A stretch of DNA of 64,000 nucleotides, taken from assembly GCA_018713485.1 (NCBI GenBank), contig DVOQ01000016.1, forward strand, positions 24,953-88,952, written 5' to 3'. Below are positions 50,116 through 53,261 of this stretch, piece by piece (the stretch's first letter is position 1; each line of letters opens with the position of its first letter). A program made the position numbers and the translations under genes. The stretch comes from Candidatus Avisuccinivibrio pullicola (GTDB lineage: Bacteria; Pseudomonadota; Gammaproteobacteria; Enterobacterales; Succinivibrionaceae). A model generated the notes under the pieces. The model had not been told where the DNA came from. It saw only the letters and a list, made by a program, of their open reading frames with translations, and did not search any database.

Positions 50116-51462
50116 TTAGGATTGCTGAATTTCCTCGGGATGTTCCTTCAGGTATTCATCCTCAAGCTCGTAGCGCGGGTTTAGGAAGTGATCGTAGAGA
50201 GCAAGTATGATGAGGAGCACCAGGCTGGGCAGAAGCCAGGCAAGATAGGCATCGCTTAAAGGCAGAAGTGTGGTCACGCTCGGGGGCAGAAGAGAGATAC
50301 CCGCGGTCTTAAAGCCGTCTACGAGACCAAAGGCAAGGCTTAAGAGAGCCACCGGAGCTATCACAAAACGCGGGTTGTTAAAGCGCCGTGCTACAAAGGA
50401 GGTGAAGACCAGCACCACGAACATCGGATACACCGTCATGAGCAGCGGCGTGGAGATGCGGATGAGTTCCGTGAGGCCTAAATTGGAAATGACGCAGGAG
50501 AAGATGGCGATGGCAAAGACGTAGGCGCGGTAACGGATTGGGGTAATGGAGCTGAAATAGGCCGAGCATGCGCAGATAAGGCCGATGGCGGTCACGAGAC
50601 AGACGATGGTGATAAGCAGGCTGAGGAAGATATTGCCGCCCGTGCCGAAGGCGTAATTGACGAAGGCCCTGAGCACGGTGGCGCCGTTCTCGGCCTCGGG
50701 GGCCAGGACGTGCGCGGTGACGCCGAGCTTAAAAAGCGAGACGTAAATCACGATAAAGCCGATACCGGCCATGGAACCTGAAATAATGGCGTATTTGGTG
50801 ATGCGTTTTCTTTCCGTGACGCCGCGGGAGCGGATGGCGTTGACGATCACGATCCCGAAGGCTAACGAGGCGAGGGTATCGAGGGTGAGATAGCCGTTGA
50901 TGATCCCCTCGGAGAAGGCCTGGGAGCGGTAGGGCTCCACGGGATCGATGGGGGCGGAGGGCGAGAAGATGACGCCGGCTACGCACAGCACTAACAGCGC
51001 GCCGATCTTGACCGGGGAGAGGAAGCGCCCCACGGTGTCGAGGATCTTCGTGGGGTAGAGGGCAAAGAGCGCCGCGATGACGTAGTAGATAACCGAGTAG
51101 ATAAGTAGGTTATCCTCTCCCATGTAGGGAGCTGCTCCCATTTCATAGGCCACGGTGGTGGTACGCGGGATGGCGTTGAGCGGGCCGATGCACAGATAGC
51201 AGATCACGGCCGCGACGATGCCGCCCTTAAGACCGATGGGCAGGGTGATGAGGGTCAGGGAACCGACCTTGTTGGCAAGGGCGATGGCGGCGATGACGGG
51301 CAGTCCCACGCCGGTAATGATGAAACCGATGGCAGAACTTATCACCTCGGTTCCGGTACACATGCCTAAATAGGGCGGGAAGATAATATTGCCGGCGCCC
51401 ACGTAGAGCACGAAGTTGGTCATACCGAGCAGGATAATGTCCCTAAACGAAAGTTTTTGCAT
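50116..51462 (-). CDS. brnQ: Branched-chain amino acid : cation symporter, LIV-II type
   Basis: A 448-residue integral membrane protein with about 12 hydrophobic helices. It matches the BrnQ/LIV-II family from its N-terminus (FVLYVGAGNIIFPPYLGM, with the GNIIFPP signature) through GVNPLNAIPRTTTVAYEMG-like blocks (here GPLNAIPRTTTVAYE). It carries leucine, isoleucine and valine inward with sodium or protons. It ends with an acidic cytoplasmic tail. It is a single gene. The start follows GAGGTGCTAA. Confidence 0.92.
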   Translation of the reverse strand: MQKLSFRDIILLGMTNFVLYVGAGNIIFPPYLGMCTGTEVISSAIGFIITGVGLPVIAAIALANKVGSLTLITLPIGLKGGIVAAVICYLCIGPLNAIPRTTTVAYEMGAAPYMGEDNLLIYSVIYYVIAALFALYPTKILDTVGRFLSPVKIGALLVLCVAGVIFSPSAPIDPVEPYRSQAFSEGIINGYLTLDTLASLAFGIVIVNAIRSRGVTERKRITKYAIISGSMAGIGFIVIYVSLFKLGVTAHVLAPEAENGATVLRAFVNYAFGTGGNIFLSLLITIVCLVTAIGLICACSAYFSSITPIRYRAYVFAIAIFSCVISNLGLTELIRISTPLLMTVYPMFVVLVFTSFVARRFNNPRFVIAPVALLSLAFGLVDGFKTAGISLLPPSVTTLLPLSDAYLAWLLPSLVLLIILALYDHFLNPRYELEDEYLKEHPEEIQQS

Positions 51463-51676: not shown

Positions 51677-51844
51677 TTAGACGTGCAGATGCTTGACGCG
51701 ATCGCGCTCCTCGGCGCGCTTGGCGTTGTTAAAGCGATCAAGGGTACCGACGAGATAGCCCGTGACGCGGCGGATGCGCTGAAATTTCACTCCCGTGCCG
51801 ATAATGCCGTTCTTGCTGTTGAGCCTGCAGATAAAGTTACTCAT
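51677..51844 (-). CDS. Stand-alone NrdD C-terminal (glycyl radical) domain-like small protein
   Basis: Absent from the ORF track because it has only 55 codons. Minus-strand translation from ATG 51844 gives a protein whose second half (RIRRVTGYLVGTLDRFNNAK, then RAEERDRVKH) closely matches the C-terminus of anaerobic ribonucleotide reductase NrdD (E. coli RRVCGYLGSPDARPFNAGK then RRVKHL), which carries the glycyl radical in GYL. The first half (FICRLNSKNGIIGTGVKF) has one cysteine instead of the zinc CxxC pairs. ACAGGA lies 9 bases upstream. Similar tiny NrdD-annotated proteins occur in anaerobes. Whether it works as a radical-repair domain, like YfiD for PFL, is speculation. Confidence 0.7.
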   Translation of the reverse strand: MSNFICRLNSKNGIIGTGVKFQRIRRVTGYLVGTLDRFNNAKRAEERDRVKHLHV

Positions 51845-51920
51845 GATGCTGTCCTGTGTCGTGGGTGAGGTGATTTGCGTTTTTATTGTAGGTCACCTGA
51901 AGGAGGGCGGAGATTTAGCT

Positions 51921-51933
51921 GCAAAAATTTTGC
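51921..51933. promoter_or_regulatory. Palindrome GCAAAA-A-TTTTGC between divergent genes
   Basis: A perfect 6+1+6 inverted repeat sits between the minus-strand NrdD-like gene and the plus-strand MFS carrier gene, a typical operator position. The minus-strand TACAAT (51885-51890) lies close to it. No regulator is known. Confidence 0.4.
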
Positions 51934-52067
51934 AACAGAAGCTCTCAGGTGAACCGTACTGGCCGCTTTCTGCACTGTTTTAGGTATGACCGCGGTCTTT
52001 TACACAACTCAGGTTTCTTTTCCCGGGGCTATGCAGTAGGATCCGCTCCGTTTTAAAGGAGGGTAAT

Positions 52068-53261
52068 ATGATTAAGGGGCTTATCTCACTGGCCTTCGGC
52101 GCGCTGTCCTTTGGCATTATCGAGTTCGTCGCCATGGGTCTTCTGCCATATTTTGCCGCAGATTTCGGCGTGTCCATAGCCATGGCCGGGCAGACCATTT
52201 CCTTTTACGCCTTCGGCGTGGTCGCCGGTGCTCTGGGGATCATCTTCTGTCAGCGCTTTAATCTAAAGCGACTCATGCTCGTTATTGTGGCACTGCAGTT
52301 AGTGGGCATTCTGCTCACCCCCATGGCACAGAGCTTTGAGATGCTGCTTGCAGGACGCTTTGTCAGCGGACTGCCTCATGGCTGTTTCTTCGGGGTGGGG
52401 GCGATCATCGCGCAGCGGATTGCCGTTAAGGGCAAAAGCAATGCCGCCATGGCGATCATGATCGCAGGGCAGACCGTCTCCAACGTCTTCGGCGTGCCCT
52501 TAGGCACCTTCTTAGCTCACGCCATCTCATGGCAGACCATCTTCTATATCATGGCCGTCTGGGACGTGGTGGTGCTGTTATCCATGCTCCGCTTCCTCCC
52601 CGATACGGGACATCTTGAGGAACAGAGTTTCCTTGGGCAGTTCCGTTTCCTGAGACACCGCGCCGCATGGCTCGTCTTCGGCACTATCTTCCTTGACAGC
52701 GTGGGTATCTTCTGCGTGCACACCTACGTAAGCCCCATGCTCACCGGGCATGTGGGGCTGGCGCTTGAACACGTGCCGGCCGTGCTCATTGTCATCGGCA
52801 TGGCGATGATGATCTTCAATCTGCTTTCAGGACGACTTGCCGATCTCTTCACCTCCGGCAAGGTCACTTTTTACTTTCTGATCCTCGCCCTTATCTCCAT
52901 GCTCCTGTTAGGCCTTGCCGGCGGGCATGTCATGGCGGTGGGCATCGTCACGGCCTGTATCGTGCCTGCGGTGCTCTTTGGCGTGGGCACGCCTGAGCAG
53001 GTGGCGATCGTGCGCTGTGCCCGCGGCGGCGAGCTTTTAGGCGTGGCCTTGGGCCAGGTGTGCTTTAACATGGGCAATGCCGTAGGGGCCCTCTTAGGTG
53101 CCCTGCCCATGGAACACGGCTATAGTGTGGCGAGTATCACCTATATCGGGGCGCTGCCCCTTGCCCTTGCCATCGGCCTCATCTTTGTCTACGTGCGCTG
53201 TGACGAGGCGGCCGTGGAGGCGGCACGGGATGCCGAGAGAGCACTGGAGAAAGAGGCCTAG
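52068..53261 (+). CDS. MFS transporter, AraJ-like
   Basis: A 397-residue major facilitator carrier with 12 predicted helices. It resembles E. coli AraJ along most of its length: GLPHGCFFGVGAIIAQ against GFPHGAFFGVGAIVLS, VPLGTFLAHAISWQTIFYIM and RGGELLGVALGQVCFNMGNAVGA. These carriers are proton-driven exporters of sugars or drugs; the natural substrate is unknown. Start after AAAGGAGGGTAATATG. It is a single gene, divergent from the NrdD-like small gene. Confidence 0.88.
   Translation: MIKGLISLAFGALSFGIIEFVAMGLLPYFAADFGVSIAMAGQTISFYAFGVVAGALGIIFCQRFNLKRLMLVIVALQLVGILLTPMAQSFEMLLAGRFVSGLPHGCFFGVGAIIAQRIAVKGKSNAAMAIMIAGQTVSNVFGVPLGTFLAHAISWQTIFYIMAVWDVVVLLSMLRFLPDTGHLEEQSFLGQFRFLRHRAAWLVFGTIFLDSVGIFCVHTYVSPMLTGHVGLALEHVPAVLIVIGMAMMIFNLLSGRLADLFTSGKVTFYFLILALISMLLLGLAGGHVMAVGIVTACIVPAVLFGVGTPEQVAIVRCARGGELLGVALGQVCFNMGNAVGALLGALPMEHGYSVASITYIGALPLALAIGLIFVYVRCDEAAVEAARDAERALEKEA

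Follow-up and report, generated by a model that had tools for sequence, protein, structure and literature searches.

The orphan gene and its surroundings

The window considered here is the whole 64,000-nucleotide stretch of DNA that was analysed. On its minus strand lies a 55-aa open reading frame, hereafter called the orphan, which a first-pass annotation had pointed out from the letters alone and which is indeed present (Table 1). The ribosome-binding site, described there as good, proved to be a fair Shine-Dalgarno sequence. A promoter scan gave no sigma-70 match for the orphan, and a terminator scan gave no intrinsic terminator. The hairpin directly past the stop codon is not a canonical terminator because it has no T run. 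The neighbouring brnQ gene accompanies the orphan in relatives and lies outside the glycyl-subunit/NrdD system. Between the orphan and the divergent MFS gene, an inverted repeat (GTTCACCTGA / TCAGGTGACC) flanks a gcaAAATTTTTGC stretch at 51891-51953 and looks riboswitch- or operator-like. A glycine riboswitch was suspected from this repeat on the plus strand; no Rfam match was found at gathering or at E<=1.

Table 1. Features around the orphan gene (positions of the window)
Feature	Position	Strand	Basis
55-aa glycyl-radical subunit gene, orphan copy, MSNFICRLNSKNGIIGTGVKFQRIRRVTGYLVGTLDRFNNAKRAEERDRVKHLHV	51677..51844	-	ORF, family searches, relatives
Codons of G29 (predicted radical glycine) and Y30	51755..51760	-	Alignment to 8p23; invariance in relatives
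AGGA, probable Shine-Dalgarno, 7 nt ahead of ATG	51852..51855	-	Sequence
9-bp perfect hairpin CCCTCTCCC-GCTTT-GGGAGAGGG directly past the orphan stop codon	51646..51668	-	Sequence
BrnQ-type branched-chain amino-acid transporter (PF05525), downstream neighbour of the orphan	50116..51462	-	
MFS transporter, divergent neighbour of the orphan, context only	52068..53261	+	

Residues 19-53 of the 55-aa protein correspond to the glycyl-radical loop of class III ribonucleotide reductase (RNR), NrdD. The Pfam model NRDD (PF13597) matches the protein with 31 bits against a cut-off of 26.2, at profile positions 533-562 of 562. NCBIfam PRK07111 matches with the end of its profile only (E=1.2e-12), and residues 708-739 of Prevotella copri NrdD (PDB 8p23) align with E=4e-6. 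By these scores, the likeness to NrdD is far above chance. The family-model searches found neither the catalytic barrel nor the Zn ribbon in the orphan protein, their matches covering the last ~30 NrdD positions only. These results uphold the early description of an NrdD-type glycyl-radical protein devoid of a catalytic domain. In the 8p23 alignment, G29 is the equivalent of Gly711, named as the radical glycine of P. copri NrdD (PMC11226230). The conservation of the glycine and tyrosine of the GYL motif, on which the first-pass annotation had made its proposal depend, was borne out: G29 and Y30 are invariant across 18 relatives, and the flanking NrdD loop residues likewise.

A search for homologues and their neighbours, which had been advised at the outset, recovered orthologues of the orphan in six species of two genera. 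They lie upstream of brnQ, mostly with the MFS gene opposite, and have in common an N-terminal FICR that is distinct from the operon copies described below. Across the six orthologous genes, dN is 0.02-0.19 while dS is >1 or saturated; the reading frame is under purifying selection.

A class III reductase divided over two genes

The nrdD gene of the source genome (contig C80) matches PF13597 at positions 1-531 only and stops just past the Zn ribbon, ending in CPKCGRRDGEGVTIERLSKLGVDCICTG. The question whether this NrdD has its own glycine loop can thus be answered: it has none. Behind it lies a 52-aa ORF (MVTRLHARNGVVGEGVKFERIRRVTGYLVGTLDRFNNAKRAEEHDRVKHMHV) that has a Shine-Dalgarno sequence to itself, AAGGAG, and carries the glycyl loop (PF13597 533-562); nrdG with its CxxxCxxC motif comes next. 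Since nrdD ends before the loop and the loop stands on a separate ORF, the enzyme is split between Zn ribbon and glycyl loop. The core NrdD, 753 aa long, comprises the ATP-cone, the barrel, the catalytic cysteines and the Zn ribbon CPVC...CPKC, and aligns with 8p23 over ATP-cone and barrel. The catalytic cysteines C184 and C452 are nearly invariant in split cores. What the core lacks is the covalent C-terminal glycyl-radical loop RVxGY by which a class III RNR is recognised. As the core never carries this loop, it must depend on a separate glycyl subunit. No full-length NrdD was found in the source genome (82% complete). With none to repair, the orphan would be an additional subunit gene and not merely a repair patch. 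Another split-NrdD genome (G002) contains, on contig C4:9882-10844, a second, divergent NrdD-like ORF (513 aa, profile 164-504) in which no glycyl loop was matched.

The orphan and the operon glycyl copy are 78% identical over residues 5-55, and the first 18 residues of the orphan protein differ from the operon copies. This distinct N-terminus, along with the extra unlinked copies, would suit a small protein in which the RVTGYL...RVKH motif has been put to a different use, e.g., in regulating NrdG or NrdD. Such a role is very unlikely, given that the radical glycine, the tyrosine and the flanking NrdD loop residues are invariant and that the core NrdD is without this very segment, which known class III chemistry requires.

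Co-occurrence in the Succinivibrionaceae

Within the family, NrdD is truncated in 13 genomes, and every one of these has the small gene, in up to four copies. Nine family genomes with an E. coli-type cis NrdD (one with the loop on the same chain) have no short homologue, and cis NrdD and the small gene occur together in none. A further family genome outside this tally of 13 and 9 (G035, 74% complete) holds a longer, 86-aa glycyl form.

The large subunit of class I/II RNR (PF02867) was not found in the split genomes G000, G001 (96% complete), G002, G014 and G018, and the source genome (82% complete) gave no PF02867 match. No class I/II RNR was found in cultured Succinivibrio dextrinosolvens DSM 3072 (G062) or S. 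faecicola (G068) either. Therefore, the split enzyme is apparently the sole RNR of these genomes, unless all drafts miss a gene; at 82% completeness of the source genome, the absence of other RNRs rests on relatives, mostly draft genomes. Class I/II RNR is also present in the split genomes G003, G004, G008, G010, G013, G015, G016 and G020. The split NrdD with its small gene is conserved and probably essential. The orphan copy is missing from several split genera and is thus not essential for the split enzyme. In the core tree, the split NrdD of Succinivibrionaceae falls outside the E. coli-type lineage to which the NrdDs of the cis genera belong, pointing to lateral acquisition.

Wider distribution and origin of the split

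Named genomes were scanned with the small protein as seed, so the sample is biased, and the best 80 of at least 584 loci were considered. Among these best 80, core and small gene occur together in 45, of which 37 also have nrdG; a cis NrdD was seen in 16 of the 80, and most of the remainder have the small gene only. Split cases span Succinivibrionaceae, Oscillospiraceae/Butyricicoccaceae, Bacilli/Mycoplasmatota and Desulfovibrionaceae. The split is rare in 147 evenly drawn genomes of the Marasmitruncus class, with G060, G171 and G212 among the matches listed. A tree of the cores without the loop needs eight changes between split and cis (gains not separable from losses), at least five of them forced by strongly supported branches. 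A single clade of split forms was rejected in the tree of sampled rows (p-AU 1e-13). In Candidatus Desulfovibrio intestinipullorum (G063), the small gene was found with neither an NrdD core nor a class I/II RNR, this MAG being probably incomplete.

In Marasmitruncus massiliensis, the core is 35 kb away from the small gene and nrdG, on the opposite strand. As core and small gene are unlinked, the small protein acts in trans. The split operon was also found on a circular S. variabile replicon (OY725842). C. difficile was among the plasmid matches, and the record opened has an ordinary full-length nrdD.

At some loci (L041), both ORFs lie in one frame with a single stop between them, as if recoding or ligation made a single chain of core and small ORFs, unless the split were an artefact of assembly. 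This explanation is hardly credible, considering that up to four in-frame stops intervene, that the ORFs have separate Shine-Dalgarno sequences and that the genes are unlinked in Marasmitruncus. The frame relation of core to small ORF is mixed (21/13/11 over the three frames), so there is no programmed read-through, and recoding of the core stop codon is ruled out. An assembly artefact is ruled out by the same split in cultured isolates and on the circular S. variabile replicon.

Intact cis NrdDs with a separate glycyl protein exist as well. In G150, an intact cis NrdD is followed by a 94-aa glycyl protein and then nrdG, and the Clostridia G194 and G136 combine an intact cis NrdD with an unlinked standalone glycyl protein of ~94 aa. 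By gene content, this is a true YfiD-like arrangement in some Clostridia. Moreover, the linker EGEGVxxER of cis NrdDs is retained in the tails of split cores, and divergence sets in at the glycyl loop (for most tails, only 0-2% of shuffles reach the score); the small proteins start with this linker, too. Such tails would be in keeping with a duplication of the 3' end followed by decay of the cis copy. Together with the arrangement in G150, G194 and G136, this speaks for a spare in the manner of YfiD, i.e., a small protein whose sole task is to stand in for the C-terminus when oxygen has cleaved it in an otherwise complete NrdD. For the orphan such a reading is improbable, as no cis loop to repair exists in the source genome or in any tested split genome of the family; repair as its sole role in the source genome is refuted. 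The spare part for a full-length NrdD that the first-pass annotation had in mind is thus not found where it was proposed, but it does seem to occur elsewhere. For the origin of the split, a path from cis NrdD via cis NrdD plus spare to the split form would be the simplest reading of these sequences.

Several further tails and glycyl proteins were recorded. In the core tails of L059 and L090 (Desulfovibrionaceae/Mailhella), a degenerate form of the glycyl loop is still in register (GEGIPLETLRRIKGY, GEGIPLSVLKQLKGY), possibly a relic of a cis loop. The clostridial split cores L102, L087, L085, L075, L093 and L046 share a conserved tail of the form ~TxGYxGDPxEExxRxxNP, which is absent from Succinivibrionaceae cores. 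Glycyl proteins of 86-94 aa with an N-terminal domain of ~50 aa are encoded at L231:1474-1779, L230:1471-1761, L232:1462-1776, L024 and L107. Three genomes with proteins of 86-94 aa also have an intact cis NrdD, making these proteins candidates for a true spare part. In Victivallis vadensis (G066; C44, C3), two NrdDs are of the cis type; in a third, loop and barrel share a frame but are matched separately, and an additional 125-aa ORF has a glycyl loop.

Phages and mobile elements

The small gene stands with no NrdD nearby in 65 of 80 viral contigs; three of the 80 hold split core and small gene, and two hold the small gene and nrdG. Phages carry the glycyl subunit gene alone. When three small proteins were searched in PHROGs, NrdD families were the only matches at meaningful E-values. 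Viral neighbours include genes for baseplate wedge, tail fibre, endolysin, helicase and reverse transcriptase. In viral contig L118 (3378-5150), a reverse transcriptase, possibly of the diversity-generating type, lies immediately ahead of the glycyl gene, and in L170 an RT-like gene, nrdG, the glycyl gene and a helicase are grouped.

Many copies in viral contigs, and phage integrases directly preceding two small-gene copies in G020, raise the question of whether the orphan is a duplicate derived from a phage or another element, with no role of its own while the operon copy does the work. We consider this unlikely, though less so than the other alternatives: the orphan occupies a stable chromosomal site upstream of brnQ in six species, is under purifying selection, and shares with its orthologues the FICR N-terminus that sets it apart from operon copies.

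Proposed function

Class III chemistry, as far as is known, requires the glycyl-loop segment: NrdG radicalises the glycine, and the radical passes to a cysteine of the core. The best explanation is that the orphan, an additional copy located outside the nrdD operon, encodes a free-standing glycyl-radical subunit for a class III RNR that is split (probability roughly 0.8). The sequences show the split itself, the loop in trans, the co-occurrence, the conservation, the apparent sole-RNR status and the extra copies. How the parts dock, how the radical is installed, whether subunits are exchanged and what this particular copy does, we infer as follows. The small protein would supply the loop RRVTGYLVGTLDRFN...RVKH in trans to the core NrdD, docking in the groove that, in P. 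copri NrdD, is filled by the cis C-terminus. Gly29 of the docked protein would be radicalised by NrdG, a radical-SAM activase, and the radical would then move to the core's active-site cysteine. By analogy with YfiD and T4 Y06I, ~6-kDa subunits cleaved by O2 or quenched could be replaced with no need to remake the ~85-kDa core. An exchangeable radical carrier of ~6 kDa would explain the duplicate, unlinked and phage-borne copies. A structure model was computed for a read-through proxy of L041 (core, natural intergenic linker and small protein). The core is confident (pTM 0.79), with P. copri NrdD as best PDB matches, and the loop has pLDDT <50 at residues 804-814.

Comparison with known systems and significance

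To our knowledge, the radical glycine of class III RNRs lies in cis, and glycyl proteins serving as spare parts have been validated only for pyruvate formate-lyase (PFL). No published description of a split or spare NrdD was found in the open-licence literature. Like P. copri NrdD (8p23), the split enzyme has a homologous core over ATP-cone, barrel, catalytic cysteines and Zn ribbon, and nrdG is encoded alongside the operon glycyl copy as in class III RNR systems. In contrast to the NrdDs of P. copri, E. coli and T4, in which the glycyl loop is the covalent C-terminus, the loop here forms a protein by itself, which a genome often encodes more than once.

The comparison with YfiD made in the first-pass annotation is apt. 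YfiD/GrcA and T4 Y06I are likewise small autonomous copies of a glycyl-radical C-terminus, also phage-borne. However, YfiD/GrcA serves PFL and the small protein here is of the NrdD type (PF13597); the former is a repair option, whereas the latter appears, from gene content, to be an obligatory enzyme part in the source genome. Membership in the GrcA/YfiD family was ruled out by the family search, the orphan protein having no PF01228 match, and six split genomes contained no standalone PF01228 protein. T4 Y06I is a phage-borne spare-part glycyl-radical protein of PFL, and spare parts for other glycyl radical enzymes were called possible in 2021 (PMC8683613).

An RNR divided over two genes, both needed, is also known from Pseudomonas aeruginosa NrdJa/NrdJb (PMC4520616). 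That enzyme differs in being class II and B12-dependent, and its NrdJb serves in disulfide exchange and is not a radical carrier (PMC4520616). A split of this type, i.e., a divided PF02867, was ruled out in the source genome, which has no PF02867.

These findings would place the radical of a class III RNR, apparently the sole RNR of cultured anaerobes, on a separate, exchangeable subunit. Short glycyl ORFs can escape gene callers, and split cores would then look truncated. With two small proteins and one core, it becomes testable whether the parts dock in trans, whether NrdG installs the radical on a small protein and whether subunits are exchanged after O2 damage. At about even odds, the radical-bearing part is an exchangeable, multi-copy and horizontally mobile subunit that arose through several splits, probably via an intact NrdD with a spare. 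Cells would keep spares and phages would bring their own, and fresh subunits swapped onto a shared NrdD core may sustain dNTP synthesis after oxygen damage or during infection.
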